A stretch of DNA of 64,000 nucleotides, taken from Bacillota bacterium (lineage in GTDB: Bacteria; Bacillota; Clostridia; Peptostreptococcales; Anaerovoracaceae). The notes beneath the pieces were generated by a model. The model was not told the DNA's origin. It ran no database searches and was given only the letters and a program-made list of their open reading frames with translations. Shown in pieces: positions 33,747 to 39,778 of this stretch. The stretch lies in assembly GCA_017522185.1 (NCBI GenBank), contig JAFWZZ010000024.1, positions 1-64,000 on the forward strand. The letters are read 5' to 3'. The first letter of the stretch is position 1; the number at the start of each line of letters is the position of its first letter. Made by a program: the position numbers and the translations under genes.

Positions 33747-34814
33747 CTAATCATCCCACTCATCATACTCGATTGTCTCTTTATCCCATCCGATGATGAT
33801 GCCGGATGCGGCATTGATTTCGAACTCGTATTCGAATCCATCGGCATGTGCAGTCCCTTCGTACTGATAGATGCCGTCATCCCGTTCCAGATAGAATTCC
33901 ACGAATTCTGCCCCGGGAACCTTGGCTCTGACAATTTCCTTCGCCTCGTCTTCAGAGATCAGGCCGTTGTCATGATTCTGTCCTGCGTCTGCAGATGCAC
34001 TCTGGCTGGAAGCTGCTTCCTGCTCTGGTACATATTCTTCCTTCACTTCATACGGGTCATCGTTGTGGTGTTCAAATACACACTGGTGTTCACTTTCCAG
34101 CATAACCTCTCCCGTCTTTGCGTTGACGATATAGTCACGTTCCATACCATCGATGTGCAGTTCGATTTCGTAGAAGTAATCTCCGTTTTCCTTATCCAGG
34201 TCCATATCGCGGACAGTTCCTCCACCGGCTTCTTTGATGACAGCCTCTTTTGCCTCATCATAAGTCAGCATTTCTGCTTTCTTGGAAGTATCTGCCGGAA
34301 TGGTTACGACGGAACCGTATTTCACAACACTGTCCAGGATAGCGCCGGACTCCGCATTGACATCCGCGTCGCCATAGAATCCGTCGCCTTTGAAGCTGAC
34401 TTCATATTCGAACAGTCCGTTGTCCTTCGTCAGGATGGCACTGCTGCTTGTAATGCCGTCGAATCTATCTTTTACCGCCTTTTGTGCTTCCTCTTCTGTC
34501 AGAACAATGGTATTGCTTCCCCCGTCATTGCTCAGCTGAGATTCCACCTTCTTTACTTCCCCTGTTTCTTTAATCACCTCTACCTCAAAGTGTTCCTTTC
34601 CCGCTTCGTCGTAGAAGGCCACTTCAAAATATCTGTCTTCCTCCTCGCTGCTGATGAATTTGGCAGAAGCCGGCACATATCCCTGTGCGATTTCTTTGGC
34701 TTTATCCAGATTCATGCCGGAGCTGAAGGATGTAGATGCCACGACTACGGCGATAATCACCAGGACAACGACGCCGGCGATGATGGCATTTCTCTTGTTT
34801 AATAACCCTTTCAT
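33747..34814 (-). CDS. Membrane-anchored protein with four PepSY-like domains
   Basis: A 355-residue protein. One N-terminal membrane helix (residues 9-27) is followed by four repeats that each begin with an EEA/DEAKE helix and end with a V-NAxTGEV-type hairpin (about 35-92, 105-163, 182-239, 286-346). These are PepSY domains, which often inhibit proteases or act as extracytoplasmic sensors. A low-complexity linker (QEAASSQSASADAGQN) lies before the last repeat, and the protein ends in the acidic DEWDD. It diverges from a two-component system with which it shares a promoter design. It may modulate the kinase or be its output; that is an inference. Confidence 0.8.
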   Translation of the reverse strand: MKGLLNKRNAIIAGVVVLVIIAVVVASTSFSSGMNLDKAKEIAQGYVPASAKFISSEEEDRYFEVAFYDEAGKEHFEVEVIKETGEVKKVESQLSNDGGSNTIVLTEEEAQKAVKDRFDGITSSSAILTKDNGLFEYEVSFKGDGFYGDADVNAESGAILDSVVKYGSVVTIPADTSKKAEMLTYDEAKEAVIKEAGGGTVRDMDLDKENGDYFYEIELHIDGMERDYIVNAKTGEVMLESEHQCVFEHHNDDPYEVKEEYVPEQEAASSQSASADAGQNHDNGLISEDEAKEIVRAKVPGAEFVEFYLERDDGIYQYEGTAHADGFEYEFEINAASGIIIGWDKETIEYDEWDD

Positions 34815-34868
34815 AGTATTCCTCCTGTCTATCTATATCTTTCTTTCTTATTCTTTGATGTTGCCCTT

Positions 34869-34900
34869 ATCATAAACCTGAAAAATGAAAAGAAAATGAA
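34869..34900 (-). promoter_or_regulatory. Promoter of the PepSY gene with tandem TTCAT repeats
   Basis: Read on the minus strand: TTCAT (34900-34896), six bases, TTCAT (34889-34885), ten bases, then the -10 box TATGAT (34874-34869). Two direct repeats one helical turn apart (11 bases) in the -35 place are the usual site of an OmpR-type response regulator. Confidence 0.65.
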
Positions 34901-34904
34901 AAAA

Positions 34905-34936
34905 TTCATTGTATTTTCATTTTTTTGCTTTATCAT
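34905..34936 (+). promoter_or_regulatory. Promoter of the two-component operon with the same TTCAT repeats
   Basis: TTCAT (34905-34909), six bases, TTCAT (34916-34920), ten bases, then TATCAT (34931-34936). The geometry is identical to that of the PepSY promoter next to it and of the promoter at 38083, which suggests autoregulation by the response regulator encoded just downstream. Confidence 0.65.
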
Positions 34937-34963
34937 AAAAATAACATCAGGAGGTATGGAAAA

Positions 34964-35638
34964 ATGAAGCTTTTAATAGTAGAAGACGAAAAGCGTCTGT
35001 GCCAGACCATCGCCAAATATTTCAAGGAACAGGGTTATACCATCGATACCTGCTACGACGGCAGCGACGCCCTGGACTATATCGACGGAACGGAATACGA
35101 CGCCATTGTTTTAGATATCATGCTGCCAGGACTTGACGGCATCAGCGTCCTGCGACGCATCCGGGCAAAGAAACTGACCACACCGGTACTGCTTCTGACA
35201 GCGAAGACCGCCATCGAAGATAAGGTAGACGGACTGGACAGCGGTGCCGACGACTATCTGACAAAACCATTCTCGTTGGAAGAACTTTCTGCCCGCATCC
35301 GCGTACTGATCCGCCGTCACGGGGTAGAGAGAGTGGATAATACATTGACCGTAGGGCCTTTGACCCTGGATTTAGATAAGAAGTCTGCTGTCCGCGACGG
35401 CAAGGAGATTTCCCTGACGGCAAAGGAGTATTCCATCCTGGAATATCTGATGCATAACAAGGGCATCGTTCTTTCCCGCGATAAGATCCAGCACCACATC
35501 TGGAACTACGACTACGAAGGCGGCAGCAACATCATCGACGTTTATATCCGGACGCTGCGTAACAAGGTGGATGCCGGTTTTGATCAGAAGCTGATTCAGA
35601 CCGTCCGCGGCATCGGCTACGTGATAAAGGAAGTGTGA
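34964..35638 (+). CDS. OmpR-family response regulator
   Basis: A 224-residue DNA-binding response regulator. The receiver domain has VEDE (6-9), phospho-acceptor D51 in IVLDIMLPG, LLLTAK and the KPFS lysine. The C-terminal winged helix (about 125-222) ends with VDVYIRTLRNKVD...IQTVRGIGYVIKEV. ATG 34964 is chosen because AGGAGG ends nine bases upstream. It is followed four bases later by its kinase gene. It probably binds the TTCAT-N6-TTCAT repeats of its own promoter and of the two flanking genes. Confidence 0.96.
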   Translation: MKLLIVEDEKRLCQTIAKYFKEQGYTIDTCYDGSDALDYIDGTEYDAIVLDIMLPGLDGISVLRRIRAKKLTTPVLLLTAKTAIEDKVDGLDSGADDYLTKPFSLEELSARIRVLIRRHGVERVDNTLTVGPLTLDLDKKSAVRDGKEISLTAKEYSILEYLMHNKGIVLSRDKIQHHIWNYDYEGGSNIIDVYIRTLRNKVDAGFDQKLIQTVRGIGYVIKEV

Positions 35639-35642
35639 TACC

Positions 35643-37007
35643 ATGATGAAGAACAGTTCTATCAAGAAGCGTGTCACACTCTATTACGCGCTGGTGCTCA
35701 TCAGCATCACCCTCGTGATTTCCCTGCTGCTTTCCTTCAGCATCAGCCGGCAGATCAACGTCATCACAAAGGACACCCTGATGCATGCGGTGCAGGAATC
35801 CTTCGAGGATATCGACTACGAGAACCAGATCATCGAAATCGACAATGACTTCGACAATTACGTCAAAGGCGTTACCCTGCTGGTCTACACCGAAGACGGC
35901 GTCCTGATCAAAGGCTCCGTACCGAGCGACTTCCCTGGCTCCGTTCCTCTGGAAACGGGGGACTATAAGGAAATGGAAACGGAAAACCATCTGTGGCTGG
36001 TCTACGACCTGTATCAAACCTACGATAACGGGCAGGGCCTCTGGGTCCGCGGTATTTATGCTCTGGATGACGCCACCGATACGCTGGCTGCCATTCACAG
36101 GCTGATGATCCTGATTCTGCCGCTGATTCTGGTCCTGGCAATCTTTGCCGGCCACCGGATTACCAAGCGGGCCTTTGAACCGATTGCACAGATTACAGAG
36201 GGCGCTAACTCCATCCAGCACGGCGGCGATTTATCCAAACGTCTGCCACAGGGGGAGAACAAAGACGAGCTCTACGCTTTGACGGAAACGCTGAACAGCA
36301 TGATTGGTCGATTGGAAGAAGCCTTCCAGTCAGAAAAGGAATTCACCTCCGACGTTTCCCACGAGCTGAAGACACCGCTGGCCGTGACTCTGGCAGAATG
36401 TGAATACATCCTCCAGGAAGAGAGACCTGCAGAAGCATACAAAGAGTCCCTGGAAACCATCGAAAAACAGACCCGCCGCACCATGTCCATGGTTCAGCAG
36501 TTACTGCAGATGTCCAGAACCATCAACAAGGACACTCAGATTGAGAGAGAAACCTTCGATCTGTCCGTTCTGGCAGAAGGTCTGGTGGAAGAGCTGGGAT
36601 ATGTGGCAGAAGAGCAGGGGATTCAGCTTCGTGGTGAGATTGAACCCGGCATAGAAATCACTGCAGACGAGACCCTGATCATGCGCGTCATGATGAACCT
36701 GATGACCAACGCAATGAAATACAAGAGAGATATTCCGGATTCCTGGATTCAGCTGAGTCTGCAGACGGCAGGGGATTTCGTTGAACTGTCTGTTTCCGAT
36801 AACGGCATCGGCATTGCCGAAGAAGATTTAGATCAGATTTTCAAGAAATTCTACAAGGTAGACAAGTCCAGAACCCGCAGCGGCGAAAGCTTCGGCCTGG
36901 GCCTTGCCATGGTCAAGTGGATTGCAGAAGCTCACGACGGAAATGTCATGGTAGAAAGCAGGTTAGGGGAGGGCAGCACATTTACGGTAATGCTGCCTGT
37001 AAAATAA
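35643..37007 (+). CDS. Sensor histidine kinase
   Basis: A 454-residue membrane kinase. Two helices (about 12-34 and 152-170) bracket an extracytoplasmic sensor of about 115 residues. A HAMP domain (about 172-225), then HisKA with the phospho-acceptor H240 in SDVSHELKTPLA, and a HATPase domain with NLMTNAMKY (N box), DNGIGI (G1), FKKFYK (F) and GLGLAMV (G2) follow. It is the CusS/ArlS-like type. The sensor domain contains many acidic residues (SFEDIDYENQIIEIDNDFDN), which might sense cations or cationic peptides; this is an inference. Confidence 0.95.
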   Translation: MMKNSSIKKRVTLYYALVLISITLVISLLLSFSISRQINVITKDTLMHAVQESFEDIDYENQIIEIDNDFDNYVKGVTLLVYTEDGVLIKGSVPSDFPGSVPLETGDYKEMETENHLWLVYDLYQTYDNGQGLWVRGIYALDDATDTLAAIHRLMILILPLILVLAIFAGHRITKRAFEPIAQITEGANSIQHGGDLSKRLPQGENKDELYALTETLNSMIGRLEEAFQSEKEFTSDVSHELKTPLAVTLAECEYILQEERPAEAYKESLETIEKQTRRTMSMVQQLLQMSRTINKDTQIERETFDLSVLAEGLVEELGYVAEEQGIQLRGEIEPGIEITADETLIMRVMMNLMTNAMKYKRDIPDSWIQLSLQTAGDFVELSVSDNGIGIAEEDLDQIFKKFYKVDKSRTRSGESFGLGLAMVKWIAEAHDGNVMVESRLGEGSTFTVMLPVK

Positions 37008-37032
37008 AAATATCATTTATATTGACATAAGA

Positions 37033-37062
37033 AAAGAGGCCTCGTAATGAAGCCTCTTTCTG
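37033..37062. terminator. Terminator between the kinase and Ig-like genes
   Basis: AAAGAGGC and GCCTCTTT pair around CTCGTAATGAA, with a T-rich right flank; convergent genes may share it. Confidence 0.8.
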
Positions 37063-37084
37063 TTATGTTTGTTATGGAAGTATA

Positions 37085-38023
37085 TTAGTCATCCCATTCA
37101 TCATCGTAATCGTCGTCCCAGTCATCGTCGTAATCAGGAACTACATTGATTGTGAAAGTAACCTTGCCGCCTGTTACGGTATTCTTTGCGTATACCTTTG
37201 CTGTGCCGGTTCTCTTGCCGGATACTTCTACTTCTGTGCCAACGTTGTCACCGTCTTCGAATCTCAGGATGCTGGAATCGGATACGGACCACTTGATCTG
37301 GCTGTTGTTCAGGCCGGATTTCTTTACGTTCAGTTCTACATCGTCGCCAACTTCTACTGTTCTGCTGGCGCTGCCCAGTCTGGAGATGGTGCCGTTGCCT
37401 TTCTTTACAGTTACATTGTAAACGATCTTGCCGCCAGTCAGGCTATTCTTGCAGGTAATCTTTGCTGTTCCTGCTTTCACTGCTCTCAGTTCGATTTCAT
37501 CATCGTATCTGTCGTCATCAGCGATTCTTACGACGTTCTTGTTGGATGTAGTCCAGTACAGGTTGCTGTCGGAGAAGTTTCCACCCTTTTTCACTCTTAA
37601 TTCGAATTCGTTACCTGCGGTTACGGTTCTCGCCTTGTTGCCGACTCTGGAGATGGTCTGCTTTGGTGCTTTTACCTTTACTGTGTAAACGATCTTGCCG
37701 CCGGTTACCAGATTCTTTGCTGTAACTTTGGTTGTTCCTGCCTTCAGTGCTCTGACTTCTACTTCGTCATCGTATCTGTCGTCATCGAATCTTAAGATGT
37801 TGGTATTGCCGATGGACCATTTGATGTTGCGGTCACTCATGCCTGGTGCCTTACGGACTTCTAAGTCCAGTTCTCCACCCTTGTATACGGTCTTGGTTGC
37901 GGCTCCCACTCTGCCGATCTTGTTTGCTCCTAAGCTGGAGTCTGTGTATGCTTCTGCAGGTACCACTGCCAGGCTTCCTGCTGCAACTGCTGTTGCCAGT
38001 GCTAATGCGAATAATCTCTTCAT
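37085..38023 (-). CDS. Secreted protein with three Ig-like (BIG2-type) repeats and acidic tail
   Basis: A 312-residue exported protein. The signal peptide ends after VVPAEA (residue ~25). Three repeats of about 85-90 residues follow (about 37-123, 125-210, 214-300), each with a start like ISRVG.A.RTV, a conserved W (IKWS, LYWTTS, IKWSVS), an acidic LRFDDDRYDDE-type loop and TGGKIVYTV. The protein ends in a run of D/Y/W finishing DEWDD. It has no cell-wall sorting signal. ATG 38023 follows GGGAG; an upstream in-frame TTG is less likely. It carries the same promoter design as the two-component genes. A cation-binding or adhesion role is an inference from the acidic loops. Confidence 0.82.
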   Translation of the reverse strand: MKRLFALALATAVAAGSLAVVPAEAYTDSSLGANKIGRVGAATKTVYKGGELDLEVRKAPGMSDRNIKWSIGNTNILRFDDDRYDDEVEVRALKAGTTKVTAKNLVTGGKIVYTVKVKAPKQTISRVGNKARTVTAGNEFELRVKKGGNFSDSNLYWTTSNKNVVRIADDDRYDDEIELRAVKAGTAKITCKNSLTGGKIVYNVTVKKGNGTISRLGSASRTVEVGDDVELNVKKSGLNNSQIKWSVSDSSILRFEDGDNVGTEVEVSGKRTGTAKVYAKNTVTGGKVTFTINVVPDYDDDWDDDYDDEWDD

Positions 38024-38082
38024 TTTTCTCTCTCCCTTCAAATTTCTATCTGAAATATATTGTTTATCGATTTTATAGCCTT

Positions 38083-38114
38083 ATCATAAGGGAGAAAAAT
38101 GAAAAGAAAATGAA
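38083..38114 (-). promoter_or_regulatory. Promoter of the Ig-like gene with TTCAT repeats
   Basis: Minus strand: TTCAT (38114-38110), six bases, TTCAT (38103-38099), ten bases, TATGAT (38088-38083). Spacing is the same to the base as at the two sites near 34.9 kb. Confidence 0.65.
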
Positions 38115-38130
38115 AAAAATAAACTTTTTC

Positions 38131-38583
38131 TCATTTTCTTAAAAAACTTTCTAATATTTCTGCTGCGTCTGCCACGCACCTTGTGCAGGGGCGGGATGCA
38201 TAGTAGTTGTCTGTTCTTGCCGCCGGTTCGTAGGAATCCGGGCCTTCCGGTTTCTTCAGAAGCTCTCTGCAGACGATGGACCCGTGCTTCTTCTCGAAGG
38301 CCGCGGCCATGGCCTGAATCTCTTTATACTGTTTCTTCTTGCCTTCGGTATCTCCGGCTTCGCTGTATCCCTGAAGCATACCATAGACAAGGAACATGCC
38401 GCTGACTGCACCACAGACTTCCCGAAGGCGACCCATACCGCCGCCGAAAGAAGAAGCCAGCTTTGCCAGTGTCTTTGGCTCTATTTCCAGCTCATCTGCA
38501 AAGGCCAGCACCACGGACTGGGCGCAGTTATAGCCTTCTTCGAAGATTTCCGCCGCTTTTGCTGCTCTTTCCGCCGGTTTCAT
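38131..38583 (-). CDS. C_GCAxxG_C_C family protein
   Basis: A 150-residue protein of the C-GCAxxG-C-C family, a probable redox or metal-binding protein. The signature elements are GYNCAQSV (C20), CGAVSG (C57 in a G-C-A/G context), HGSIVCREL and the C-terminal RPCTRCV. Its ATG overlaps the stop of the sigma factor gene by four bases, with GGGAGGAG inside that gene, so the two are translated together. This coupling suggests that it serves or informs the sigma system. Confidence 0.9.
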   Translation of the reverse strand: MKPAERAAKAAEIFEEGYNCAQSVVLAFADELEIEPKTLAKLASSFGGGMGRLREVCGAVSGMFLVYGMLQGYSEAGDTEGKKKQYKEIQAMAAAFEKKHGSIVCRELLKKPEGPDSYEPAARTDNYYASRPCTRCVADAAEILESFLRK

Positions 38584-39314
38584 CGCGCCAGCTCCTCCCT
38601 GAACATGTTGATCATATTCTTTTCCGCACGGGAGACGGTCATCTGGGAAACCCCCAGCACTTTCGCAATTTCAGCCTGGGACCTGTTATAGTAGAATCTC
38701 GCTTTGAAAATATATCTGTGCTGGTCGCTGAGCCTGTCCAGAACACTTTCAATAATTTCGGATGTCTCGATGCGGTCATATCCCTTTTCTTCAAATCCCG
38801 TGTACTTTTCCAGGAAGGAACTTTCTCCTTCTTCTCCCGCATCGTCGTAGGTCTTGTCCAGGGAATAGGTGCCGTAGGCCTTGGAACTTTCCATTGCCTC
38901 GATAATTTCTTCCTGGGCGAATCCCGTCGCTGCGGAAATCTCCTCCACGGAAGGGTTTCTCAGATTTTCCGCATAGAAAGTATCCTTTACTTCCTGGATT
39001 TTAGCTGCCATTTCCTTGAGACGGCGGGGTACCTTAAGGCTCCACTGTTTATCTCTGAAATATTTCTTGATTTCACCTAAAATCGTCGGTGTCGCAAAGG
39101 AACTGAACTCAAAACCCCTGTCGGGATCGAATCTTTCCACGGCGGAGACCAAAGCCAGGGCGCCGACCTGATACAGATCATCGTACTCCACGCCTTTTCC
39201 TAAGTACTTACGGATAAGGATATCCACCATGTACAGATATTTTTCCACGAGCTGATTTCGAAGTTCCTGGTTCGGATTTGATTTGTATTCGAAAAATAGC
39301 TGCTGATCCATCAT
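38580..39314 (-). CDS. SigB/SigF/SigG-type RNA polymerase sigma factor
   Basis: A 244-residue group III sigma-70 factor. Region 2 (about 18-90) has [45 protein letters not shown]. Region 3 is [14 protein letters not shown]. Region 4 (about 190-240) has [41 protein letters not shown]. It is immediately preceded by an RsbW-like kinase gene overlapping by four bases (ATGA). No anti-anti-sigma gene is near. I cannot choose between the stress (SigB) and sporulation (SigF/SigG) branches; the operon resembles spoIIAB-spoIIAC without spoIIAA. Confidence 0.9.
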   Translation of the reverse strand: [244 protein letters not shown]

Positions 39315-39706
39315 AATGCCTTCACCATCTTAATGGACTTACGTCCGTCTTCATTCTTTACGCTGACTTCATCCATCAAAGTCTGCATCATATATAAGGC
39401 GATATTCCCTTCGCCCGGGCAGTGGCGGCATGCCTTATTTACCTTTTCCAAGGTATGGCATTCACAGATATCTGTTATCGTGATTTCTAATCTTCCGGCT
39501 TCCACGGCGCATTCCACCTCGTACTCGTCTGCACGCTTATCGTGGCCGTGACAGGTAACATTCTTGCATGCTTCTTCTACCGCAGTTTTAATATCTTCTA
39601 TGTCATCGATGGAAAATCCTGCTGTGGTTGCAACAGAACCGATTGCAAGTCTTACCATGGTCAGATATTCTGGTTTTCCCGGGATTGTAATTTTGATTCT
39701 ATCCAT
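39311..39706 (-). CDS. RsbW/SpoIIAB-like anti-sigma ATPase, cysteine-rich
   Basis: A 131-residue HATPase_c protein of the anti-sigma class that would hold the adjacent sigma factor. The N box is TAVEEACKNVTCHGHD. In relatives the G1 box is a D-x-G-x-G/S motif; here it reads TDICECHTLE, with cysteines C81 and C83 in place of the glycines. A further group CRHC (C93, C96) lies just before the lid GEGNIALYMMQTLMDEV. Together with C52, H53 and H55 this could bind a metal or respond to redox state. ATG 39706 is chosen for its AAAGGAGCAGG site. The stop overlaps the sigma start by four bases. Confidence 0.85.
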   Translation of the reverse strand: MDRIKITIPGKPEYLTMVRLAIGSVATTAGFSIDDIEDIKTAVEEACKNVTCHGHDKRADEYEVECAVEAGRLEITITDICECHTLEKVNKACRHCPGEGNIALYMMQTLMDEVSVKNEDGRKSIKMVKAL

Positions 39707-39720
39707 TTTCCTGCTCCTTT

Positions 39721-39778
39721 TGCAGAGATTCTCTGCATAAAAAAATGTGCACAGGTGGTTTCTCACCTATGCACATTA
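39721..39778 (-). terminator. gyrA terminator followed by a second palindrome at the rsbW ribosome site
   Basis: ATGTGCACAGGTG pairs with CACCTATGCACAT (39746-39777, one mismatch), and the minus strand then reads seven Ts: a rho-independent end for gyrA. Directly after it TGCAGAGA/TCTCTGCA (39721-39737) forms another hairpin that touches the AAAGGAG of the rsbW gene. No room is left for an ordinary promoter between them. Confidence 0.75.

Follow-up and report, generated by a model that had tools for sequence, protein, structure and literature searches.

A Predicted Three-Promoter Regulon of a PepSY-Type Two-Component System with an Ig-like Gene in an Anaerovoracaceae Bacterium

Introduction

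DbfQRS of Vibrio cholerae and a range of DbfQRS-like PepSY-kinase-regulator modules have been described; PepSY genes adjoin two-component systems in many phyla, and such neighbourhoods were reported to be more than 60 times commoner than expected by chance (PMC12714742). Here we describe a locus that resembles these modules in a gut Bacillota bacterium of the family Anaerovoracaceae (GCA_017522185.1). It lies in the first 64,000 nt of contig JAFWZZ010000024.1, and this whole stretch of analysed DNA is called the window; the whole genome has 2,120,492 bases (2.12 Mb). From left to right, the locus comprises a PepSY gene (PepSY1, minus strand), a response regulator (RR, plus), a histidine kinase (HK, plus), and an immunoglobulin-like (Ig-like) gene (minus), and its three transcription units share one promoter box. 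We consider it likely that a PepSY-type two-component system governs a small regulon confined to this locus, in which the RR would drive all three promoters.

The locus is similar to DbfQRS in that a secreted PepSY protein is encoded beside a two-component pair, and layouts on opposite strands have been reported for such modules too (PMC12714742). DbfQ has 135 aa and a single PepSY domain (PMC12714742), whereas the protein studied here has 355 aa, three PepSY domains, and a short Asp/Trp tail, and the locus has an Ig-like target in addition. PepSY1 lies divergently next to the RR, within four genes of kinase and regulator as in DbfQRS-like modules, and the same was found in eight relatives. 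Its 355 aa and three domains place it outside the small single-domain PepSY proteins, so it was compared with the DbfQRS-like module and not classed as DbfQ.

Three further systems share features of the promoters. BqsRS of Pseudomonas aeruginosa uses paired pentamers 6 bp apart (TTAAG-N6-TTAAG), the last of which overlaps the −35 region in the dissected promoter (PMC4682146), and two PepSY genes, PA2658 and PA2659, adjoin it (PMC4682146, PMC12714742). The half-sites here are TTCAT or TTAAT instead, and the BqsRS signal is ferrous iron (PMC4682146, PMC12714742). CiaRH of streptococci has the same geometry, an 11-bp-period TTTAAG-N5-TTTAAG with the −10 element at distance ten (PMC3091779). It serves 15 promoters in S. 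pneumoniae, including those of small RNAs, and the available part of that source mentions no PepSY or Ig-like output (PMC3091779). The recognition helix of CiaR is VVEVYVSKVRKKL, compared with IIDVYIRTLRNKV in the RR here. PhoP of Mycobacterium tuberculosis binds a repeated 7-bp motif with a strict 4-bp gap as a tandem dimer; its half-site (TCACAGC) and its regulon are different (PMC4832192). PhoP was among the closest solved relatives of the RR by sequence. YclJ of Bacillus subtilis has a repeated box TTCATANTTTN, which served as a lead and not as a test.

A preliminary description of this DNA had suggested a set of genes with no described counterpart. This was not supported: PepSY-kinase-regulator modules are published (PMC12714742), and promoters of the same geometry are already described for CiaR and BqsR. 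No paper on a PepSY and an Ig-like output of one two-component system was found among the open-licence papers listed in literature searches. What appears to be new is the lineage-specific exchange of output through a recruited Ig-like protein, the shared tail, and a change of half-site with the spacing kept.

The Shared Promoter Box

The features of the locus are as follows.

33747..34814, minus strand: PepSY1, 355 aa (Pfam PF03413, expectation value (E) 7.6e-34, three stretches)
33747..33764, minus strand: PepSY1 tail codons, DEWDD-stop (coding-pattern search)
34869..34900, minus strand: box 1, TTCAT-N6-TTCAT-N10-TATGAT, upstream of PepSY1 (exact match; model E 4.7e-11, top in genome)
34905..34936, plus strand: box 2, TTCAT-N6-TTCAT-N10-TATCAT, upstream of the RR-HK operon (exact match; model E 1.1e-4, third in genome)
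34964..35638, plus strand: RR, OmpR/PhoB family, 224 aa (Response_reg 6.1e-31, Trans_reg_C 5.3e-27)
35643..37007, plus strand: sensor HK, 454 aa (HAMP, HisKA, and HATPase_c matches)
37085..38023, minus strand: Ig-like protein, 312 aa (three aligned Big_2-like repeats, Asp/Trp-rich tail)
37085..37138, minus strand: Ig-like tail codons, PDYDDDWDDDYDDEWDD-stop (coding-pattern search; isoelectric point (pI) computed)
38083..38114, minus strand: box 3, TTCAT-N6-TTCAT-N10-TATGAT, upstream of the Ig-like gene (exact match; model E 2.4e-10, second in genome)

The exact pattern TTCAT-N6-TTCAT-N10-TATNAT occurred three times in the window and three times in the whole genome, and each match was aimed at a start codon. 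The number expected from the base composition of the window was 0.0097, and the pattern read backwards had no match in the whole genome. The three boxes with identical spacing that the preliminary description had placed on both strands were all found exactly there, and its view that such spacing is unlikely by chance was borne out by these counts. The genome scan that it had proposed, in which many unrelated matches would have spoken against the module, returned only these three and so did not refute it. With up to two mismatches, 24 matches, one of them with a single mismatch, were found in the genome and 6 in the control. The sole one-mismatch match, before a 360-aa open reading frame (ORF) on contig C27, was absent from the model matches described below and was set aside.

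The distance from the −10 hexamer to the start codon was 54 bp for PepSY1, 27 bp for the RR, and 59 bp for the Ig-like gene. The repeat had been called an 11-base direct repeat. Its period is indeed 11, but it is more aptly described as two 7-bp half-sites separated by 4 bp, TTTTCAT-N4-TTTTCAT; the first half-site of the RR box is AAATTCAT. Boxes 1 and 2 stand back to back, 4 bp apart, in a single divergent region. No −35-like hexamer was found at the boxes (at most 3 of 6 matches to TTGACA at spacings of 15–19). The boxes thus have the form of a CiaR/PhoB-type activated promoter, with an 11-bp direct repeat 10 bp above the −10 element and no −35 element of its own.

Because the TTCAT pattern had been picked after it was seen, an independent model of 46 positions (46 nt) was trained solely on 16 promoters of eight related genomes. 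Only its matches in the genome of the window are independent, as the 16 training sites belong to the relatives. In this genome, 150 of 1783 first-look candidates were scored, and the E-values are rough. The boxes of PepSY1, the Ig-like gene, and the RR-HK operon took ranks 1, 2, and 3, and the next match was a 22-nt partial one (E 0.009). A chance origin of the boxes is ruled out by the exact genome count, the backwards control, and the model trained on relatives. The module is closed, as had been proposed, insofar as the genome holds no other exact match and no further full-length box was found among the scored candidates. A stretch below the −10 element, TATNATAAGGCCATA, gave 13 matches in five genomes at up to one mismatch and 9 in the backwards control, and no claim is made for it.

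Conservation of the Regulon in the Genus

Thirteen genomes of the genus were searched, including that of the window. An RR orthologue of at least 77% identity was found in nine (77–88% in the relatives), and those nine carry the boxes. The other four had no model match below E 0.015 and no PepSY match; two of them, G001 and G003, are 82% and 85% complete. The box, the close RR orthologue, and the PepSY genes therefore co-occur across the genus genomes searched.

In the eight relatives, the box was found upstream of PepSY1 and of a second PepSY gene (PepSY2) that adjoins metK (TIGR01034, found in 8/8 PepSY2 loci). All 16 of these boxes have exact TTCAT half-sites, N6, and N10; the −10 hexamer matches fully in 7 of them and differs by one base in 9. 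Of 13 exact matches in the genus, 11 lie at regulon genes. The four-gene block itself, whose conservation had been put forward as a check, is not kept: the eight relatives have the RR, HK, and PepSY genes without the Ig-like gene, and the second PepSY gene is elsewhere. In one relative (G011), a 365-aa ORF (L134:5573-6670) lies between regulator and PepSY1 and splits the divergent promoter region.

The Ig-like Gene and the Absence of PepSY2

A search of the other 12 genomes of the genus at E 1e-5 found no match to the Ig-like protein. Among 296 genomes of the family, matches at E 1e-6 were confined to its own genome and G196, a member of another genus (52% identity), and a weak 25% match was found in one order-level genome. 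A signal peptide was judged by eye. The whole protein matched nothing in Pfam or NCBIfam at E 0.001, including PF02368 (Big_2). Its first repeat scored 18.6 bits, below the Pfam cut-off of 22.8 for Big_2, and at E up to 1, 4/6 repeats of the own and G196 proteins matched Big_2 (best 0.0011). Where a cut-off was given, the repeats lie below it, and they are named no more than Big_2-like. The solved relatives of the repeats were SbsB (E 0.047) and a designed protein (E 0.7). An AlphaFold2 model from one sequence had a mean predicted local distance difference test (pLDDT) score of 34.8, too poor to use. The protein had been described as secreted and acidic. The C-terminal tail is acidic; the whole is basic (pI 8.3, body 9.6).

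No PepSY2 match remains in the genome of the window. There, metK and an aspartate kinase gene (NF006540) are about 100 bp apart, and the aspartate kinase gene sits beyond PepSY2 in G002, G005, and G006. Since PepSY2 is missing at the metK locus and the Ig-like gene carries a box, the Ig-like gene, judged by its promoter, holds the place in the predicted regulon that PepSY2 has in relatives.

The Ig-like box shares 34 to 41 of 46 positions with the PepSY2 boxes of relatives and 30 to 36 with their PepSY1 boxes. The own PepSY1 box likewise leans to PepSY2 boxes (up to 40, against 36 of 46), and the similarity score misplaces one box of each kind, PepSY1 and PepSY2, among the relatives. For both reasons, we do not conclude that the Ig-like box descends from a PepSY2 box; the Ig-like gene may either have taken over the PepSY2 promoter or have gained half-sites of its own. 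Below the −10 element, TATNATAAGGC[CT]ATAA (L223:7535-7550, window 38073-38088) is common to the Ig-like genes of the two genera and nearly present in several PepSY2 promoters; it is little commoner than in the backwards control.

The Shared Asp/Trp Tail

PepSY1 has three PepSY domains, a pI of 4.3, an N-terminal hydrophobic segment (read by eye), and the C-terminal end DEWDD. The Ig-like protein ends in PDYDDDWDDDYDDEWDD, so that a D-[D/E]-W-D-D tail is common to both. The coding pattern for this tail followed by a stop was searched in 21 genomes (the own, 12 of the genus, and 8 of the order) and gave seven exact matches. All seven were the stop ends of PepSY1 (own, G004, G005, G007, G008, G011) or of the own Ig-like protein. 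In G002, G006, and G009, PepSY1 lacks the final D and ends in DWD, and the PepSY2 proteins do not have the D-[D/E]-W-D-D end. The Ig-like homologue of G196 stops after PDYDD, and a PepSY protein of that genome ends in EDDWDDRYDD. At the level of sequence, PepSY1 and the Ig-like protein are connected twice, once by the box and separately by the tail.

A Different Half-Site in More Distant Relatives

The best match to the RR in the pieces of G196 searched was a regulator of 56% identity. An RR-HK-PepSY operon is followed in G196 by a two-PepSY gene, and the Ig-like homologue is unlinked, on another contig. All three have a box with the same spacing: TTAAT-GTATTT-TTAAT-N10-TAAAAT at the operon, ATAAT-TTTCGA-TTAAT-N10-TATGAT at the two-PepSY gene, and TTAAT-ACTATT-TTAAT-N10-TATCAT at the Ig-like gene. 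A scan of 1,629,394 bases of G196 (101 loci) for TTAAT pairs in this geometry, allowing no more than one half-site mismatch and requiring TANNAT as the −10 element, gave four matches, three of which were these. In the first 1.32 Mb, −10 spacers of 4 to 16 gave 2 exact-type matches at 10 and none at the others, and half-site gaps of 3 to 9 gave 2 matches at gap 6 and 1 elsewhere (gap 5). Among ten permutations of TTAAT in the same geometry, the true one had 2 matches and the others 0 or 1, a small margin alone; both true matches were at G196 regulon genes.

In G001, G010, and G012, whose regulators are 54–58% identical to the RR, the gene after the HK, which encodes a secreted-looking beta-repeat protein, has CTAAT-N6-TTAAT-N10-TATAAT in 3/3 cases (two by scan, G010 by eye). 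A secreted-looking two-repeat beta protein (family F16) is encoded directly after the HK in three genus members without a PepSY match (L136:6188-6877, L137:7243-7929, L138:6683-7384). It had a sub-threshold Big_5 match in the one tested, and no solved relative below E 0.7 was found.

In a regulator tree of 18 rows, the TTCAT regulators formed one clade (98/99) and the TAAT regulators another (80/82). In the recognition helix, the TTCAT regulators have IRTLR and the TAAT regulators IRYLR or IHHLR. We regard the helix residues as a lead, not a proof, for what determines the half-site.

TTCATA half-sites in the same geometry were seen at order level in 8/17 loci examined (L012, L013, L017, L018, L021, L024, L026, L029; the motif starts 1501 bases in, on the strand of the match). 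The genes behind them encode DUF2680-like proteins (three, sub-threshold), an OmpR-type regulator, a SHOCT protein, an AcrB-type pump, a trypsin/PDZ protease, and one unmatched small protein. This looks like the box of another envelope-stress regulator.

Regulator, Kinase, and Neighbouring Genes

The RR has the receiver (PF00072) and the Trans_reg_C winged helix (PF00486) of the OmpR/PhoB family. It scored under the curated cut-off of the CzcR/CopR heavy-metal subfamily TIGR01387 (236.5 vs. 279.2 bits), as did the HK for the CzcS/CopS subfamily TIGR01386 (238.6 vs. 292.55 bits), and neither was assigned to these subfamilies. The small outer domain of the HK (residues 37–152, limits set by eye) is acidic, with a pI of 4.05, and D67, D69, D71, E110, D122, and D142 are invariant in 9/9 sequences. 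A structure model of the HK N-terminus built from three sequences had a middling pLDDT of 67.1. Foldseek gave weak matches to a WalK model (1.1e-4) and to the sensor domains of CzcS (0.011) and PhoQ (0.018), which were too weak to be used for naming the signal.

Three genes lie between the Ig-like gene and a gene identified by eye as gyrA (window 38131-39766). They encode a C_GCAxxG_C_C protein, a sigma factor of the SigB/SigF/SigG family, and an RsbW-like anti-sigma protein whose match is under its cut-off. No anti-anti-sigma gene was noticed among the ORFs adjoining the sigma factor and RsbW-like pair.

Proposed Mechanism and Alternative Explanations

We propose that the small acidic outer domain of the HK senses a signal in the envelope and that the HK phosphorylates the RR in response. 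The RR would then bind as a head-to-tail (tandem) dimer to the two TTTTCAT half-sites spaced by 11 bp, in place of the missing −35 element and 10 bp above the −10 element. Bound there, it would help RNA polymerase at promoters without a −35 element, as an activator and not a repressor; precedents exist in other OmpR-family systems. The RR would activate its own operon, PepSY1 on the opposite strand, and the Ig-like gene, with the back-to-back sites serving PepSY1 and the RR-HK operon. In DbfQRS-like modules, the PepSY protein binds the sensor domain of the kinase and shifts it towards phosphatase activity; by analogy with DbfQ in Vibrio, PepSY1 probably feeds back on the HK. The Ig-like protein would have joined the regulon of this lineage as a second exported product, whereas relatives have PepSY2. 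The acidic outer domain of the HK and the acidic PepSY1 fit the sensing of cations, a metal or another, or of cationic peptides.

We hold it very probable that all three units are controlled by the neighbouring regulator of the OmpR/PhoB family, because the exact pattern is unique to them in the genome, the boxes co-occur with the RR orthologue, and a more distantly related regulator goes with another half-site at the same spacing. The preliminary description had proposed that the sensor, the regulator, the PepSY protein, and the Ig-like protein are controlled together; this is supported to that extent, with binding by the RR as a prediction.

Several observations weigh against this explanation, and some concern the RR-HK box. 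Among the eight relatives, its counterpart is exact only in G002; the half-sites differ by one base in G005, G006, and G007 and by two in G009, and no counterpart was seen in G004, G008, and G011. By eye, no clear box was found before the regulators of G001, G010, G012, and G017. The poor conservation in the eight relatives, together with the weakest model score of the three, would fit the explanation that the PepSY and Ig-like boxes are regulatory and the RR-HK box is a by-product of the divergent region, through which the operon is not autoregulated. We find this rather unlikely, since the box is exact here and has a TATCAT of its own at 27 bp from the start codon, and the G196 operon likewise has the box geometry.

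Other observations concern the specificity of the box. One exact match in the genus lies outside the PepSY loci (L007/L147; G009:C41:5928-5959, minus strand), 79 bp upstream of a 585-aa ORF; it scores poorly with the model (E 0.10) and could be a further target in G009. Another lies within a long ORF (G012:C52). The fourth G196 match (L314:11573, plus strand) has TTAAC as its first half-site, TACAAT, and no ORF of 80 aa behind it, and among the G196 regulon boxes, the two-PepSY box has one half-site mismatch and the operon box TAAAAT as its −10 element. The support of the TAAT clade is weak, and G196 is a long branch. The helix contrast is also unclean: IRYLR occurs in G017 and G041, where no box is known, and a paralogue in G196 has IRTLR.

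Alternatively, the boxes might be bound by a different OmpR-family regulator, with the neighbouring pair only one of its targets. At E 1e-40 or better, the RR has three more matches in the genome, and TTCAT half-sites with the same spacing stand upstream of other envelope genes in other families of the order. We consider this quite improbable, because strong model matches track the close RR orthologue in 13/13 genus genomes and the distant orthologue-like regulators pair with a different half-site. It is more improbable still that the shared promoters are a recent local copy of promoter DNA with little functional meaning, as the 38/46 identity of the own PepSY1 and Ig-like boxes and the resemblance of both to PepSY2 boxes in relatives (at most 40 and 41 of 46) might suggest, since the PepSY boxes are kept over nine genomes and the G196 Ig-like homologue has a different half-site at the same spacing.

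Biological Implications

We speculate, while holding it unlikely, that the PepSY and Ig-like proteins are interchangeable extracellular partners of one kinase family and that the Asp/Trp tail is their shared working part. If so, the regulon would keep its promoter geometry and swap the beta-rich protein that it makes. The tail would dock on the acidic domain of the HK via a bridging cation, or scavenge the sensed cation or cationic peptide, and the Ig-like protein would be a feedback subunit, not a passive surface protein.

How the secreted part of PepSY two-component systems works is little settled. The predicted regulon consists of only three promoters, its box was recovered independently from relatives, and natural comparisons stand behind one promoter geometry: two PepSY proteins, a PepSY and an Ig-like protein, or a beta-repeat protein alone. 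For these reasons, the locus may serve as a compact test case for the joint change of an OmpR-family regulator and its half-site and for the exchange of an extracellular output.

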